Below, one piece after another: positions 12,411 through 19,180 of a DNA stretch of 64,000 nt. The translations under genes and the position numbers were made by a program. The stretch is taken from assembly GCF_000166775.1 (NCBI RefSeq), contig NC_014720.1, positions 2,102,501-2,166,500 on the forward strand, given 5' to 3'. Each line of letters opens with the position of its first letter. Positions within the stretch are counted from its first letter, which is position 1. The notes under the pieces were generated by a model that was not told the origin of the DNA, searched no databases, and saw only the letters and a list, made by a program, of their open reading frames with translations. The DNA is from Caldicellulosiruptor kronotskyensis 2002 (lineage in GTDB: Bacteria; Bacillota; Thermoanaerobacteria; Caldicellulosiruptorales; Caldicellulosiruptoraceae).

Positions 12411-12802
12411 AATTTATGCTCCTTTCTACAACCGATATTTGTGCAATTTTTGATTTTATGTTTAATTATGCTTGATTTTTAAAGCTAAAGTTAAATAGTT
12501 TTGTATTTATGTGTTTTTGTATTTGATTTTGATGTCTTTTATTAATTATTATAATATAACTCAGGTATTTTGTCACTATGATTTATTTAAAATTTAAACT
12601 AATTAAATTGTTAATTTACTCTGCAAATTGTTGTGAGATTATTAAAAATACACAAAAATCATTTCAAAACAAACCACTGCTAAAAAGTTTCACCACGATA
12701 ATATTTATCTTGCACAAAGATTTTACCTGTGTTATATTTTTAGCTAAATGCGACAAAGCTTTTGCAACTTTTGAAATAGATTATCCAAAAAGGGGGCGCA
12801 AG
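12411..12802. other. 392-nt divergent intergenic region
   Basis: Very AT-rich spacer between the divergent aldolase and permease genes. An open frame runs through its right part into the permease, but it lacks a ribosome site and codes for nothing recognisable. A candidate plus-strand promoter lies inside. No palindromic operator stands out. Confidence 0.6.
12710..12738 (+). promoter_or_regulatory. candidate promoter for the APC permease
   Basis: TTGCAC (12710-12715), a 17-nt spacer and TATATT (12733-12738), 65 nt upstream of the chosen permease start. Confidence 0.45.
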
Positions 12803-14113
12803 ATGGAAAGCAACATTCTTCTTAAGAAAAATCTAAACATCTGGATGGCACTATCCTTAGTTGTGGGAATGGTAATCGGTTCAGGGGTATTTTTTAAAGC
12901 AACACCTGTTGCAAAGTACTCTGGAAGTTTTGCTTTTATTTTTTTTGCATGGCTTTTAGGCGGAGTTATGTCACTTTGCGGTGCCCTTGTTGCTGCTGAG
13001 TTTTCAGCAAGATATCCTCACACAGGTGGGCTTTATGTCTATCTTGAAAAAATTTATGGCAATAAAATTTCTTTTTTGTTTGGTTGGATGAATACTCTAA
13101 TTTATACACCCGCCATACTTTCTGCATTATCAGTTTTGTTTGCAGACCAAGTATCAAGTATGTTAAACGTAAATCAATTAGTACATGATATTTTAGCTAT
13201 CAGTATCTTGACAACAATAGTTATAATCAATGTTATAGGCAACAAATATGGTGGGGCTTTTCAGCTTTTGGCAACAGTTTTAAAACTAATACCCCTTTTT
13301 TTGATTATTTTTTTTGGTCTCATAAGACCTATTGAAGCTGAAAATTTTATATCTTATGGACATTTTACGGAAAATTTTGGACTTGCAGTTTTATCTACAC
13401 TGTGGGCTTACGATGGTTGGCTCTCTGTCCCAAATGTTGCTGGAGAGATGAAAAATGCTAAAAAGAACTTAGTTTTGGTGCTAATATTCGGAATGTTATT
13501 TGTTATGGTGGTTTATCTACTTGTAAACATTGCTTACATTAATGTCATTGGAATTGGGAAGCTTGCAGCAGCTGAAAATGCCATAAACATTATTTCTGAA
13601 AAGTTATTTGGTCGTACTGGAAAGGTTCTAATATCACTTGGTATAATTATTTCCATTGTTGGAACCTTGAATGGTTTTGCCCTGACAGGTATAAGAATTC
13701 CTTATGCCATGGCAACAAATCAGCGATTTATTGCAAACAATGTATTTTCAAAGCTTCATCCTCGTTTCGCAACACCTGTGAACTCAAGCATACTTGTTTT
13801 TATTCTCTCGCTCTTGTATATTTTCACACGAAGCTTTAACAGACTCACAGACCTTGCCATGTTTTCAACATGGATATTCTATGTTCTGTTTTTTATTGGA
13901 ATATTTATCAAGCGAAAAAGAGAAGGAAAGAACAAGGAAGGGTACAATACATTCTTGTATCCTATAACCCCACTTGTCGCAATCTTCAGTGGTTTATACA
14001 TTCTTGTAAACAACATATTCTCAAACCCTACAGACTCAATTTTTTCTGTTCTAATCACATTACTTGGCCTGCCTGTATATTTTCTATTTGTGAAGAAGAA
14101 AATAAAAAAATAA
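12803..14113 (+). CDS. APC-superfamily amino acid permease
   Basis: 436-residue membrane transporter with about 12 hydrophobic segments. The first helix carries GMVIGSGVFF, the backbone-binding motif of amino acid/polyamine/organocation carriers. I start at ATG 12803 behind AGGGGGCG; a longer frame from 12578 would add 75 residues with no homology-like content. The last 263 bases lie inside the left copy of the 316-bp duplication created by the IS, but the gene keeps its own stop and terminator and is intact. Substrate unknown. Confidence 0.85.
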   Translation: MESNILLKKNLNIWMALSLVVGMVIGSGVFFKATPVAKYSGSFAFIFFAWLLGGVMSLCGALVAAEFSARYPHTGGLYVYLEKIYGNKISFLFGWMNTLIYTPAILSALSVLFADQVSSMLNVNQLVHDILAISILTTIVIINVIGNKYGGAFQLLATVLKLIPLFLIIFFGLIRPIEAENFISYGHFTENFGLAVLSTLWAYDGWLSVPNVAGEMKNAKKNLVLVLIFGMLFVMVVYLLVNIAYINVIGIGKLAAAENAINIISEKLFGRTGKVLISLGIIISIVGTLNGFALTGIRIPYAMATNQRFIANNVFSKLHPRFATPVNSSILVFILSLLYIFTRSFNRLTDLAMFSTWIFYVLFFIGIFIKRKREGKNKEGYNTFLYPITPLVAIFSGLYILVNNIFSNPTDSIFSVLITLLGLPVYFLFVKKKIKK

Positions 14114-14166
14114 GGCTCTTCGTGAGGGCATCCACACAAAGAGCCTCTTCTTTTATTTTATATTTT
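13851..14166. repeat. left copy of 316-bp target-site duplication
   Basis: Identical base for base to 16149-16464. It contains the last 263 bases of the permease gene, its terminator, and the last 14 bases of the convergent UPF0182 gene. The repeat abuts the IS end at 14167. Two more bases (AG at 13849-13850) match the IS end by chance, so the boundary is certain to within two bases. Confidence 0.93.
14114..14145. terminator. permease terminator (original copy)
   Basis: GGCTCTT (14114-14120) pairs with AAGAGCC (14139-14145), with an inner GTG/CAC, followed by a T-rich tract. It starts directly at the permease stop. An exact second copy lies at 16412-16443. Confidence 0.75.
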
Positions 14167-14179
14167 CTTGACTTTGTCA
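14167..14179 (+). repeat. IS left terminal inverted repeat
   Basis: CTTGACTTTGTCA, perfect inverse of 16136-16148. Confidence 0.85.
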
Positions 14180-14246
14180 GTTTGAAACTCAAAAAGCTTG
14201 GGAGGACTGGGATTGACAAAATTTGGACCTCAATTTTGTCACTACA

Positions 14247-15950
14247 TCATTTGTTAATGCCAATAAATCCTAAACCTTCCTCATATGTCATGAAATTTTT
14301 TGGCCCCTTTATCTTCATCACATTCAGGATGTCTATAGCTCCTCCTTCTGTCCTTTGCTTTATCAAATATTTCTTCCCTTTTATCTCTATTTCAATAAAA
14401 TTCATTGAATCTATCGCTTCCATTATCCTTTCACTACTTATCTCTTTACCTTTTTTCCTCAAAATATATTCCAATGTCCGTTGTAATAAAAATGCCAAAA
14501 AACATATCACAAAATGTCCTTTTATTCTACTTTCTGTAAAGTGATATATCGGTCGTACTTCTAAACAGCTTTTCATTACTCTGAATGACTGTTCTATCTT
14601 CCATAAATCGTGATATGCTCCTAAAACTTCTTCTACATCCATATCCTTTTTACTCGTCTGTATTGCATAATAACCGTCAAACTTCTCATCTCGTTTTATC
14701 GCTTCCTCATCCAATTCATATTCTTCTGTCTTTGATTTCTTCTTCAAATATCTCCTCGCACCTTTTTTCTCTAAGGATGTTATACTTCCTTTGTTCTCTA
14801 AAAGCTCTTTGGCTTTTGATACAAGTCTTTCCCTGTCTTCTTTGTCTTTCTTAGCTCTCTTGCTTGAATACGTTATTATCAGTCTCTCTTCTATTTTAAA
14901 CTCTTTACCCTCTTCATCCTTGATAACATTTGTTCTTTCCAATACCTTATATTTGAATTCATCTCCATAAATTTCTTCAGCATTCAAACAACTTTTTCCA
15001 TCAAGCCTTTTATATCCTTCTTGCTCAAATACTTCATCTAAAACTTCTTTACTTGCATTCTTTAATCTGCTTGCTACTATATAATCATATCCCGCTTCTT
15101 TTATCATCTTTAAATTTAATCTGCTGTTGAGCCCTTTGTCTGCTACTATCACTATCTTATCTATACTAAATTTTTCCTTCAGTTTCCTCAATATCTTTAC
15201 CATTGTTTTGCTATCTATTGTATTGCCAGGAAAAAGTTCATAACCTATCGGCCTGCCTTCTTTGTCTACCAAAAGCCCTAACACAACCTGTACTTCATTT
15301 ATCTTGTTGTCTTTGCTAAAACCAAAATTTTTAAGTTCATCGGCTCTACAACTCTCAAAGTATATTGTCGTCACGTCATAAAAAACTATATCAACCACCA
15401 TCTTAAATAAATCCCTATTTCTCTGATACAGGTATGTCTCTAAATCCTCTTTTATACTGTCAAGAAAATCTAAACACCTGTATAATTGATTTAAATCTAT
15501 ATCCTCTTCAAATCCAAAATATCTATTCTTCTCATGATAAGTTCTCAGTTTGCTCATAGGTTCTATCAATCTCTGTATGGTCATTAAAAAACTTACTTTG
15601 TCTACGTCAAATTTTATCTTTCTCCCCCTTGTTGCTCTCTCTTTTAAAAATTTATCTATTTCAAGTTCTTCCCATAACTTTCTGAATACAATGTACCCCC
15701 AATTTTTTATAACTGCATCCGATACATCCTCTTCAGATTCAATAGTAACAGCTTCTGTATTGTCAGTAGTTGTTCTTTCAACAATATCAGATAGTTTTTT
15801 TACAATGTTTCTAAAAGCAGGATCATTTTTGAGAAGATCAAGTCTACCAAAATTAAATAACACTCTTTGCTTAACCTTGCCATTTTCACGATAGTTTTCG
15901 ACTAATCTAACATACTGGTAACCGCCAGCATTAGTTATTTTGACAAACAT
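14247..15950 (-). CDS. IS1634-family DDE transposase
   Basis: 567-residue transposase. I start at ATG 15950 behind GAGGAG with a 7-nt spacer; an upstream in-frame TTG at 15989 lacks this site. Catalytic residues are visible in the usual order: Asp192 in FYDVTT, Asp271 in VADKGLNS, and Glu453 in the LWKIEQSFRVMK region, which corresponds to the IS4-type Y-R-E-K signature. The N-terminal 160 residues hold the conserved family region (MFVKITNAGG, FGFEEDIDLNQLYRCLD). No frameshift or stop interrupts it, so it may be active. Confidence 0.92.
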   Translation of the reverse strand: MFVKITNAGGYQYVRLVENYRENGKVKQRVLFNFGRLDLLKNDPAFRNIVKKLSDIVERTTTDNTEAVTIESEEDVSDAVIKNWGYIVFRKLWEELEIDKFLKERATRGRKIKFDVDKVSFLMTIQRLIEPMSKLRTYHEKNRYFGFEEDIDLNQLYRCLDFLDSIKEDLETYLYQRNRDLFKMVVDIVFYDVTTIYFESCRADELKNFGFSKDNKINEVQVVLGLLVDKEGRPIGYELFPGNTIDSKTMVKILRKLKEKFSIDKIVIVADKGLNSRLNLKMIKEAGYDYIVASRLKNASKEVLDEVFEQEGYKRLDGKSCLNAEEIYGDEFKYKVLERTNVIKDEEGKEFKIEERLIITYSSKRAKKDKEDRERLVSKAKELLENKGSITSLEKKGARRYLKKKSKTEEYELDEEAIKRDEKFDGYYAIQTSKKDMDVEEVLGAYHDLWKIEQSFRVMKSCLEVRPIYHFTESRIKGHFVICFLAFLLQRTLEYILRKKGKEISSERIMEAIDSMNFIEIEIKGKKYLIKQRTEGGAIDILNVMKIKGPKNFMTYEEGLGFIGINK

Positions 15951-16135
15951 ATGGTAGCTCCTCAAAGGTATTTTGAATAATTGTACCACAAAATATTCAA
16001 AATGTCAAGTATTTATAGCATATTTCAGACTCTAATTTGCCACTACAATTTTTAAAATTTTTTATTTTTCTATTTTCAAAACCCGCATAAATTAAGACTT
16101 TGTCATTTTTTGTTAGCTCAATAACCACTCCTAAT

Positions 16136-16148
16136 TGACAAAGTCAAG
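16136..16148 (-). repeat. IS right terminal inverted repeat
   Basis: TGACAAAGTCAAG, perfect inverse of 14167-14179. Confidence 0.85.
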
Positions 16149-16411
16149 ACCTTGCCATGTTTTCAACATGGATATTCTATGTTCTGTTTTTTATTGGAAT
16201 ATTTATCAAGCGAAAAAGAGAAGGAAAGAACAAGGAAGGGTACAATACATTCTTGTATCCTATAACCCCACTTGTCGCAATCTTCAGTGGTTTATACATT
16301 CTTGTAAACAACATATTCTCAAACCCTACAGACTCAATTTTTTCTGTTCTAATCACATTACTTGGCCTGCCTGTATATTTTCTATTTGTGAAGAAGAAAA
16401 TAAAAAAATAA
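16149..16411 (+). pseudogene. orphan 3' end of the APC permease
   Basis: Promoterless duplicate of the last 87 permease codons, identical to the intact gene at 13851-14113. An in-frame ATG at 16157 opens an 84-codon frame, but there is no ribosome site. It is a by-product of the IS target duplication, not a gene. Confidence 0.9.
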
Positions 16412-16443
16412 GGCTCTTCGTGAGGGCATCCACACAAAGAGCC
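16412..16443. terminator. duplicated terminator ahead of UPF0182
   Basis: Exact copy of 14114-14145. Here it serves the minus-strand UPF0182 gene, which stops at 16451. Confidence 0.7.
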
Positions 16444-16450
16444 TCTTCTT

Positions 16451-19180
16451 TTATTTTATATTTTTCATCATCTCATCAAGTTCTCTGAACTTCCTGCCAA
16501 ATTCTTCCCAGTTGCCTTCTTTCAATGCTTTCTTAGCATCTTCAAATATAACTTTTAGCTTGGAAAGCTGCTCAGAAAAGCTTTGAATTTCCTGAGCACC
16601 TTGCTGCTGCGGCGTTTGTAGCTCTTGAGTAGTCTGTGTAAGCTGCTGCCCAATCAGCTGCGTGAGAGCATCATTTAGGCTGCTTCCCATTACTACTTTG
16701 CCGTTGCAGGCAGCAATCACTCTTTTTACCTCTGGCAAAGCTGATGCGTTGTCAGATGCAATATAGATTGGTTCGATGTACAAAATCTTCTGGTTTATAG
16801 GCAGTGCCAACAAATTACCTCTTATTACTTTAGAACCTCCCTGATTCCAAAGAGACAAATCTTTTGAGATCTGCGGGTCCTGGTCAATCATATTTTCCAC
16901 CTGCAGCGGACCATAAACAGTTGAGCCTTTTGGAAACTTGTAAAGCACAAGCTTTCCATAATTTTCTTGGCTACTTTTTGCTGCAAGCCATGCAATCATT
17001 GTATTATATTTTAGCGGTGTAAATGGTACCATCAAAATCATTTCTTCTTGTTGCGAATCTGGAAGTTTCATTACGCTATAATATGGGGGAATATAGTCAA
17101 TTGAGCCATCAGGGGTTTTGTGTTTACCAAAATCCCACAAATCTTCTTTGTTGTAGAACACATTAGGGTTTGTCATGTGATATCTTTTCAAGACATTTGC
17201 TTGGACAGTAAAGATATACTCCGGATATCGTATGTGCTCGGCAATATCCTCTGGAATGTCTCCTTTTTCAAAAAGCTGAGGATATATGCTCTTGTATACA
17301 TTTACAATCGGGTCGTTCTTGTCAACAATGTAGAACCTCAAGGTGCCATTGTACGCATCAATCAAAACCTTTACAGAGTTACGGATATAATTAAAACCCT
17401 CTTCAGTTGGTTCTGAATATGGAAAATAACTTGTCTTTGTGTATGCATCCAAAACCCACACTAAACGGCCCTTCCCATCAATTAGGATATATGGGTCTGG
17501 GTCAAATTCCAAAAACGGTGCAACCTTTTTTGCTCTTTGAATAATGTTTCTGTTTATAAGAATTTTGCTGTTTGAATTAATGGCAGAAGAAACAAGAAGC
17601 CTAAAATCTTTATATACATATGAAAATATCAGTCTGTTTAGCGGTGTGAGTTTTATTCCGCCCTGACCTGTGTATCTGTAGAGCTTATTTGAATCACCTT
17701 CTGGATAATCAATCTCATCAACCTTTGTGTTGACTATCACATACGGGTCTGTCTTTTCTCCATAGTATATGCGCGGCTGAGTAACCTTTGGCGCACCATC
17801 TAAACTTTTTACAGGAATATCCTTTATTATGAACTTTGGCTGACCTTCTGGTGTCACCTCTGTCATAAGACTCATAACAACACCGTAACCATGGGTATAC
17901 TGGAATTTCTGGTTTATATATGTCTTTGTTGGAATGCCATCGTAATTTATCTCTCTCGCAGAGATAAACACAGATTTTATCCTGCCGTTTATGGTATATT
18001 TTGAAATGTCTGCATCGTTGAATATATAATACTGTTTAAACCTCTGAATCTGGTTTTGTATATCCAGGGTAGTTGGAAAATCTGTTATCCTTATATTTTC
18101 AACTGTTGCTTTATTTTGCTGCAAATCTTTTGCCGTTATATTATTTGTTGTGTCTATAGGAAAATATTTTTCTTCAATATTTTCTAAATTATAGGCCAGA
18201 CGTGTAAATTTTATATTTTTCTCCAAAAACGGTCTTTCATATACCTGTTCGTTTGGTGATACAACAAAGTACTGAAAAGCTGCTGAAATTATAGTCCCCA
18301 AAACTGCCCATCCAACATAAGAAAGCATAACTTTTCCGATGTTTGTGTACTTTCCTTTTGCAAAAAAGTAAATACTAAGAACAATAACTGCAGCCAAGAC
18401 TATATAGGAAAGCTTAAAATAGTTCATTCTAATATAATAGTCTGTATACCCAACACCAACAACCTCTCCAAAGAAAGAGTATAAAAGCCCTTCCATTTCA
18501 TACTTCAATGTGAACATTTTAACAACTAATATGAGTATAAGATTGAAAAATATATGAGCCCTGACCTTTTTGTCAGATAGAATATCCCACGAACTTGTTC
18601 TGCTAACAAATGAAGCTGTGTAAAGAAGCAAATATAGCACCACTGTGTATATACATACAAATATCATCAAGAAAAAGAGGAAATTCACCACAGTCAGAAA
18701 AAATGGTCTTTCAAATACATAGTAACCTATGTCTTTCTTAAAGATTGGATCTTTGATATCAAAAGGTTTCGAATGCGTCAATGTCAAAAACTTTATATAG
18801 AGATTGTTTTCCAAATATTTACTTGTCACAAGTGCCAAGAAAATTGAAAGAATAATGTTGAGAATGTTCTTCTTCAAAAAACCAATTTTCCCTACAATTC
18901 TTTCGATATTCTTTTTCACAATTGCATTGTTTGTAAAAAACACAAAGAACAATATAACAAAAGAAATTATCTGCACAGACAGTTTTACATAGAAATTTTT
19001 CCAGAACACACTGACAAAATTCTTACCAATCTCTCTTATCTGGATTAACTCCAAAAACAAATCAAATGCGATTGAAAACGCAATAGCAATCAAAATCAGC
19101 AGTGCCAAAACAAACCCTATTCTTTTTAAAAGCCTTTTTGTCTTTTCCTTTTTATAATCATAAATTATTCTATCTGCCAT
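16451..19180 (-). CDS. UPF0182-family membrane protein
   Basis: 909 residues. About seven hydrophobic helices fill the first 310 residues, followed by a large domain of about 600 residues with conserved stretches (YTHGYGVVMS, PRIYYGEKTDPYVIVNT, PEYIFTVQANVLKRYHM, MVPFTPLKYNTMIAWLAA) typical of the COG1615/UPF0182 family. The C-terminus has a glutamine-rich linker and a charged helix. Function is not established for the family; an envelope role is likely from topology. Its last 14 bases lie in the right target duplication of the IS, and the gene is intact. Confidence 0.88.
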   Translation of the reverse strand: MADRIIYDYKKEKTKRLLKRIGFVLALLILIAIAFSIAFDLFLELIQIREIGKNFVSVFWKNFYVKLSVQIISFVILFFVFFTNNAIVKKNIERIVGKIGFLKKNILNIILSIFLALVTSKYLENNLYIKFLTLTHSKPFDIKDPIFKKDIGYYVFERPFFLTVVNFLFFLMIFVCIYTVVLYLLLYTASFVSRTSSWDILSDKKVRAHIFFNLILILVVKMFTLKYEMEGLLYSFFGEVVGVGYTDYYIRMNYFKLSYIVLAAVIVLSIYFFAKGKYTNIGKVMLSYVGWAVLGTIISAAFQYFVVSPNEQVYERPFLEKNIKFTRLAYNLENIEEKYFPIDTTNNITAKDLQQNKATVENIRITDFPTTLDIQNQIQRFKQYYIFNDADISKYTINGRIKSVFISAREINYDGIPTKTYINQKFQYTHGYGVVMSLMTEVTPEGQPKFIIKDIPVKSLDGAPKVTQPRIYYGEKTDPYVIVNTKVDEIDYPEGDSNKLYRYTGQGGIKLTPLNRLIFSYVYKDFRLLVSSAINSNSKILINRNIIQRAKKVAPFLEFDPDPYILIDGKGRLVWVLDAYTKTSYFPYSEPTEEGFNYIRNSVKVLIDAYNGTLRFYIVDKNDPIVNVYKSIYPQLFEKGDIPEDIAEHIRYPEYIFTVQANVLKRYHMTNPNVFYNKEDLWDFGKHKTPDGSIDYIPPYYSVMKLPDSQQEEMILMVPFTPLKYNTMIAWLAAKSSQENYGKLVLYKFPKGSTVYGPLQVENMIDQDPQISKDLSLWNQGGSKVIRGNLLALPINQKILYIEPIYIASDNASALPEVKRVIAACNGKVVMGSSLNDALTQLIGQQLTQTTQELQTPQQQGAQEIQSFSEQLSKLKVIFEDAKKALKEGNWEEFGRKFRELDEMMKNIK

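Follow-up and report, generated by a model that had tools for sequence, protein, structure and literature searches.

The amino-acid permease and UPF0182 genes in the 64,000-nucleotide window that was analysed are convergent, and the gap between them is occupied by an insertion sequence of the IS1634 family flanked by long direct repeats. The features of this locus, in window positions, are as follows:

12578–14113, plus strand: complete amino-acid permease ORF (PF13520), likely start ATG at 12803
13851–14166, plus strand: left copy of the target duplication, comprising the permease 3' end, the terminator and the last 14 bp of the UPF0182 gene
14113–14146, plus strand: bidirectional terminator hairpin, left copy, serving the permease
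14167–16148: 1,982-bp insertion sequence of the IS1634 family, with its transposase encoded on the minus strand, CTTGACTTTGTCAGTT...AATTGACAAAGTCAAG
14167–14182, plus strand: left terminal inverted repeat, CTTGACTTTGTCAGTT
14247–15950, minus strand: transposase, 567 aa, ATG at 15950 (NF033559, PF01609)
15980–16008, minus strand: candidate sigma-70-like promoter by pattern match, TTGACA-17-TACAAT, the -10 box preceded by TG, immediately upstream of the transposase ATG
16133–16148, minus strand: right terminal inverted repeat, whose minus strand reads CTTGACTTTGTCAATT, 15/16 identical to the left
16149–16464, plus strand: right copy of the target duplication, a direct repeat of the left copy
16149–16411, plus strand: repeated 3' end of the permease gene, a remnant that lacks its own start
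16411–16444, minus strand: bidirectional terminator hairpin, right copy, serving UPF0182
16451–19180, minus strand: complete UPF0182 gene (PF03699)

The flanking repeats are identical at 316 of 316 bases, for which the probability of chance is negligible. Within each copy lie the 3'-terminal 263 bases of the permease ORF, whose stop is at 14113, together with the final 14 bases of the UPF0182 gene, which ends at 16451 on the minus strand. The terminator is a GC hairpin that has a T-rich tail in either reading direction; the left copy has a value of -17.9 kcal/mol (z = -5.4) and the right copy, read on the minus strand, has z = -6.1. The initial annotation had described perfect 316-bp repeats that leave both neighbours with complete ends and a terminator copy each; the repeats proved exact at those positions, and their content bears out the description of the two genes.

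The transposase is predicted to start from the ATG at 15950, an alternative GTG start at 15989 (580 aa) being less likely. The gene product scores 420 bits with the IS1634-family profile NF033559, for which the cut-off is 100 (E = 1e-125), in agreement with the IS1634-like designation first given to the element. The catalytic residues are D192, D271 and E453 with a second D–E spacer of 181 residues, and this DDE triad is conserved in 29 of 29 rows from elements with long duplications (long-type). The YREK motif is incomplete (Y446, L449, E453 and K460), with R replaced by L. No solved structure matching the transposase by sequence was found. The best fold match, provided by Foldseek, was Tn5 transposase (E = 2e-9); this used an AlphaFold model built from a five-sequence alignment, the core of which was good enough, while a single-sequence model (pLDDT 35) was unusable.

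Six members of the genus (L041–L045 and L048) are collinear through the joined flanks and carry the 316 bp in single copy; the stretch occurs once in each of these relatives and twice only in the Caldicellulosiruptor kronotskyensis genome studied. One uninterrupted copy in six relatives identifies the 316-bp repeat as a target duplication made by the insertion, the origin that had been proposed for it together with this empty-site comparison, in which none of the six has two copies. Taken alone, a repeat of several hundred bases resembles a local duplication, and the element could have inserted into a tandem repeat that already existed, or the arrangement could derive from recombination of two nearby insertions. 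This reading is extremely improbable, since the site is single-copy in the relatives and since, in many genomes, almost all copies are flanked by such repeats, which stop precisely at the inverted repeats. A pre-existing tandem repeat at the 316-bp site is ruled out by the single-copy empty sites, and a fixed short duplication accompanied by a coincidental long repeat is ruled out by the other copies.

Copies of the element were located by sequence search of genomes, and scans of contigs yielded four relatives in genome contigs and zero in viral contigs. The genome's two other full copies of the element have identical boundaries, as do 45 further copies within the genus. The other copies in the genome carry repeats of 59 and 405 bp, so that the survey suggested initially gave long and variable rather than short and fixed duplications. 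Across the genus, 40 exact repeats of 15–589 bp have 39 distinct lengths, and none of the 40 is 5–6 bp. Other element types, mostly from other Bacillota, provided 25 further exact repeats of 14–1,362 bp, which is also the range of all 65 copies with exact long repeats.

The junctions in the genus share the consensus TT[A/C]|A[A/G]AA on the joined strand, position +1 being A at 72 of the 80 junctions (p = 3e-26), and each element end joins an A-rich site of its own, the two on opposite strands. When ranked leave-one-out by the site profile among positions within 600 bp, the cut sites reach a median of the 96–97th percentile. Both ends have the A in 32 copies, against 32.4 expected under independence. 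Target preference is a property of each junction separately, and the choice made by one end does not depend on that of the other. With regard to the question raised initially of how the staggered cut is set, the stagger is apparently not a fixed spacing but the outcome of two separately chosen cut sites, which is a partial answer.

Some transposases hold two target phosphates at a fixed spacing of approximately 5 bp. The favoured reading here, with a probability of roughly 0.72, is that the element ends join separately chosen and loosely spaced sites on opposite strands, and that strand-displacement repair copies the DNA between them. The element, encoding a DDE transposase (Tn5-like, IS4 superfamily), would have transposed into the convergent permease/UPF0182 gap. 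In long-type lineages the two ends would be joined to the target strands at points separated by tens to hundreds of bp, either simultaneously or successively; the target 3' ends at the nicks would then be extended by strand displacement, and this extension would copy the intervening DNA so that it is present on both sides of the element. The nick positions, the order of end joining and the repair are read back from the end products and remain putative. One specific form of this pathway is possible but rather unlikely: one end would join first and a host polymerase would extend the target nick through strand displacement; the second end would then join the opposite strand at any suitable A-rich site encountered. 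In this form it would be the target that is replicated, not the element, and a few transposase residues would switch between this uncoupled mode and the fixed 5-bp mode.

The lengths of the repeats fit an exponential distribution (KS p = 0.97), but a log-normal fits them as well, and the length distribution alone therefore cannot pick a model; a uniform distribution was rejected. A helical period in the lengths was tested and none was observed (p = 0.82 and 0.24). These lengths bear on the alternative that both ends attack together in one complex tolerating a large target loop or a melted bubble, with gap repair of the ordinary kind afterwards. If the loop were double-stranded, spacings under approximately 100–150 bp should be disfavoured and helical phasing would be expected, whereas 42% of the repeats are shorter than 100 bp and phasing is not seen; a melted bubble is unaffected by these objections. 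Such a concerted attack also accords with the scored copies, all of which show a duplication and none an obvious deletion, the pattern of ordinary transposition with fixed polarity, and overall it is a tentative alternative with the odds against it.

Insertion linked to replication is a further alternative, in which the two ends would attack different daughter duplexes, or different arms of a fork, at staggered positions and so produce on one chromosome a duplication whose length is random. In genome G008, where dnaA lies at base 28 and the GC skew flips near 1.38 Mb, the orientation of the transposase matches the direction of replication in 26–27 of 38 copies (p = 0.014–0.034), although this bias is weak and could reflect selection. 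A search for the replication terminus by a guessed 15-base pattern returned background matches only. Under the sister-chromatid form, deletions and duplications should be equally frequent, but duplications flank at least 43 of the 48 genus copies, and the alternative is considered improbable. In two comparisons with relatives looking for deletions, copies without repeats were flanked by other repeats or by rearranged sequence, and an all-against-all comparison of flanks identified no reciprocal recombination between copies as the source of missing repeats.

The initial annotation also suggested that long duplication can make insertion into compact genomes harmless. Among 32 insertions in the genus, 20 spare ORFs and 12 break an ORF of at least 100 aa, and random positions with long repeats would give 13.3 harmless insertions, compared with 7.6 for 5-bp duplications. 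Neighbours are often left whole because a gene is broken only when it spans the entire duplicated segment. Long duplication lowers insertion damage and does not abolish it, so the suggestion stands for reduced damage and fails for harmlessness. The 20 harmless insertions exceed the 13.3 expected (P = 0.007), perhaps through selection or a preference for A/T-rich targets.

On the tree, long-type transposases are separated from those of the 4–6 bp type, with two switches or more, and the duplication class goes with lineage. Two trees supported a single origin for the long class, a reading withdrawn once Actinobacterial elements were added: the element of Microbacterium L259, with a 5-bp repeat, is sister to long-type Rhodococcus elements (approximately 1.7 kb, repeats of 23–147 bp), which indicates that the class switched at least twice. 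Residues 83, 362, 454 and 480 predicted the duplication class in an unused set with zero errors. One residue as sole determinant was rejected, with E454 also found in short-type G166; residue 362 likewise crosses the classes, with T362 in long-type L254 and S362 in short-type L259.

The survey makes an odd case tractable, with dozens of copies per genome and matched relatives having ordinary 4–6 bp duplications, and the measured preference of each end and the class-predicting residues add to this. Annotation tools built around short target duplications will misplace the ends of such insertions or overlook them. The perfect long repeats are predicted to allow homologous recombination to excise the element scarlessly.

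Duplications of hundreds of bases by two IS1634-family elements have been noted since the late 1990s. The best structural match, Tn5/IS50 of the IS4 family, shares a DDE core with a beta-strand insertion before the Glu, but Tn5 makes fixed 9-bp duplications and the R of YREK is L in the element studied. Short-type IS1634-family elements (among them ISAzo6 and those of Mesorhizobium, Novosphingobium and Streptomyces) share the family profile and DDE core, and their ends also start with C, many with the CNNNNSTTNNNCAS pattern; they differ in their fixed 4–6 bp duplications and in the residues at 83, 362, 454 and 480, and, one Actinobacterial element apart, they occupy the other side of the tree. 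Members of the family have an incomplete YREK motif, usually without the R (PMC2266710), and measure 1.5–2.0 kb with ends starting C-----YT (PMC2266710, Table 1), to which the present element conforms with 1,982 bp and CTTGACTT. Typical members have AT-rich target duplications of 5–6 bp, with IS1634 and IS1549 listed as exceptions (PMC2266710); the 316, 59 and 405 bp found here depart from this trait, which that listing makes typical and not defining. IS1634 of Mycoplasma mycoides SC and IS1549 of Mycobacterium smegmatis have direct repeats of 8–514 bp that vary from copy to copy, and a mechanistic model for them had never been proposed as of a 2008 family survey (PMC2266710). That feature recurs in the genus elements, which share the transposase family with both (the Rhodococcus elements being the nearest proxies for these two) and differ in host lineage, in a range of 15–589 bp in the genus and 14–1,362 bp in all long-type elements surveyed, and in having a measured preference per end and identified empty sites. 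Long variable duplications were already known from IS1634, as the initial annotation stated, and from IS1549, and the element studied is a further case.

The IS1634-family element lies between an amino-acid permease gene on the plus strand and a UPF0182 gene on the minus strand, and it is flanked by two direct repeats:

14167-16148, 1,982 bp: IS1634-family element, transposase on the minus strand; first bases CTTGACTTTGTCAGTT, last bases AATTGACAAAGTCAAG
13851-14166 and 16149-16464: direct repeats flanking the element, 316 of 316 bases identical

The left repeat is joined to the permease ORF (stop at 14113) and the right repeat to the UPF0182 gene (stop at 16451). The hairpin GGCTCTTCGTGAGGGCATCCACACAAAGAGCC is present in both copies, with T-rich tails in either direction and strong predicted folding on both strands. 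Because each copy adjoins one gene and holds the hairpin, both neighbours and both terminators are complete. The initial annotation had described an identical 316-bp target duplication that spares both neighbours; the identity is as given, the observation is real and its reading is correct.

The flanks of the element were joined and compared with relatives from the genus, where the initial annotation had expected the empty site to hold one copy of the repeat. An uninterrupted collinear match with a single 316-bp copy was found in six genomes (L041–L045 and L048, 76–93% identity); the remaining relatives lack conservation on the permease side or in part of the repeat region. The 316-bp stretch is present once in each genome possessing it and twice only in the window genome, which identifies the repeat as a target duplication.

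Long, variable duplications also flank the other copies. The window genome contains two further complete copies, which match each other fully and differ from the window copy by three bases. One has a 59-bp repeat within a PIN-domain gene that the insertion breaks. The other has a 405-bp repeat spanning the end of one gene together with the start region and initial 375 bp of its neighbour, which leaves both genes intact. A truncated copy (L009:5298-6568, G000:C1:904797-906067; first 1,272 bp) lies 5 kb from the full copy that has the 59-bp repeat and directly abuts an ISL3-like transposase gene. The genus sample comprised 48 copies of the 90–100% identical type, 38 of them from genome G008. Exact repeats flank 40 of the 48 (15–589 bp, 39 different lengths, median 128), and three more are near-exact or offset: one of 225 bp is 99.6% identical, one of 235 bp is shifted by 9 bp, and one of 53 bp lies outside a fragment of an element end. 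The repeats of L080 and L081 are degraded, and no recognisable flanking repeat was found for L060, L061 and L212.

Several other arrangements were observed within the genus. Three copies of the 116-bp left end alone (G002:C1:316755-316870, 337268-337383 and 344623-344738) are possibly MITE-like derivatives. In G008, a full copy adjoins a 212-bp piece from the right end of a second copy at both L072 and L213, and L074 has a related flank, a pattern that suggests insertion into an existing copy's end and subsequent duplication. Directly after the element at L093 (genome G007) is a repeat of ~190 bp, found at many genus sites with 77–98% identity, that is probably a small mobile element. With the G008 origin placed at dnaA (base 28) and the terminus at the GC-skew flip near 1.38 Mb, the transposase is oriented with replication in 26–27 of 38 copies (p = 0.014–0.034), a bias that could be due to replication coupling or selection.

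A search of 399 genomes of the phylum with the NF033559 profile gave matches in 126. Repeats were measured at 60 loci from 27 of these and at 18 plasmid loci, with 40 additional loci as a test set and two metagenome loci. Long repeats are common (14–1,362 bp exact; 1,129 and 345 bp at 99.7%), as are short repeats of 4–6 bp, and the two were never found together in one element type. The older, near-exact repeats (97–99.7%) fit duplication at insertion with later drift. Two small IS1634-like elements of ~1.5–1.6 kb, L188 on a WWE3 metagenome contig and L189, carry exact 32-bp and 45-bp repeats respectively, extending the long-repeat habit to candidate phyla. Trees of 54 and 57 transposases placed every long-type row on one side of a single branch (support 98/91 and 95/97). 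This split was lost once Actinobacterial elements were added, as the Microbacterium element L259 (5-bp repeat, single copy) is sister to Rhodococcus elements with repeats of 23–147 bp, which requires at least two class switches. The safe statement is that duplication class is a conserved lineage trait, changed at least twice; one change would be enough if the lone 5-bp repeat of L259 is a chance match.

Four residues, numbered from the transposase ATG, separate 29 long-type from 14 short-type training rows: position 83 (N versus aromatic or aliphatic), position 362 (S in all long-type versus N/D in clean short-type rows), position 454 beside the catalytic Glu (E/Q versus R/D/A/S) and position 480 (F/L versus V/I/A). 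None is sufficient alone. The class of the 40 unused loci was then called from these residues of the protein alone, with vote thresholds scripted before repeat measurement and loci with unlocated element ends left unscored. Measurable predicted-long loci had repeats of 134, 67, 136, 129, 69, 17 and 76 bp exact and 1,253 bp at 99.7%, and all 12 measurable predicted-short loci had 4–6 bp, giving zero contradictions (five long and eight short by distinct element). The vote was split in two Actinobacterial elements. This sequence comparison confounds lineage with residue effect; the signal may reflect either, and the two cannot be separated. Tn5, which makes 9-bp duplications, also has a Glu after its catalytic Glu, a further reason for caution.

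The transposase of the window element matches NF033559 (IS1634 family) with an E-value of 1e-125. Its start is most likely the ATG at 15950 (567 aa) rather than the listed GTG at 15989; a ribosome-binding-like GAGGAG lies upstream of this ATG, and pattern matching identified a promoter-like TTGACA-17-TACAAT at 16008-15980. The fold predicted from five aligned sequences (mean pLDDT 62.5, with 70–90 across much of the core) has its best match in Tn5 transposase (E = 2e-9). This match and the complete DDE triad make standard chemistry likely for cleavage and strand transfer.

In the genus, the 80 junctions follow TT[A/C]|A[A/G]AA when read along the strand to which the element joins, with A at +1 in 90%, +3 in 69% and +4 in 68% (flanks ~33% A) and T at -2 in 53% and -3 in 55%. 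Other long-type elements have A at +1 in 76%. Both element ends exhibit the same preference, with A at both in 32 cases against 32.4 under independence, and their profile scores are not positively correlated (r = -0.27). Scored against nearby positions, the cut sites have a median rank at the 96–97th percentile of the profile. Short-type elements differ in having a single symmetric 5-bp target. An exponential with its minimum near 14 bp describes the 65 repeat lengths well (KS p = 0.97), a log-normal does so equally well, and a uniform distribution was rejected. If a stiff duplex loop lay between the two cuts, few short spacings and clear phasing would be expected; a 10–11 bp period was looked for in the repeat lengths and none was found. 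We infer that in long-duplication lineages the two target joins would be made without fixed spacing. Whether the joins are simultaneous or sequential, the observed product would require strand-displacement synthesis from the target 3' ends at the nicks through the DNA that separates them. Sequential joining, if it occurs, would explain variable length, absent phasing and constant polarity together.

With ORFs called mechanically, which makes the absolute numbers rough, 20 of 32 genus insertions leave no ORF of at least 100 aa broken, compared with 13.3 expected when duplications of these lengths are placed randomly in the vicinity (P = 0.007) and 7.6 for 5-bp duplications. Long duplication by its geometry thus accounts for part of the sparing (13.3 versus 7.6), and the remainder may be due to selection or to a preference for A/T-rich gene ends.

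According to PMC2266710, the typical target duplication of the IS1634 family is 5–6 bp, and no mechanistic model for long repeats had been proposed. A later paper on the mechanism was not found in the open literature searched. What is worth following is the set of lineage-wide regularities, beyond the single element. The window element shares its long-repeat habit with IS1549 and IS1634, which are cited as producing repeats of 8–514 bp (PMC2266710), so long duplication itself is already known.
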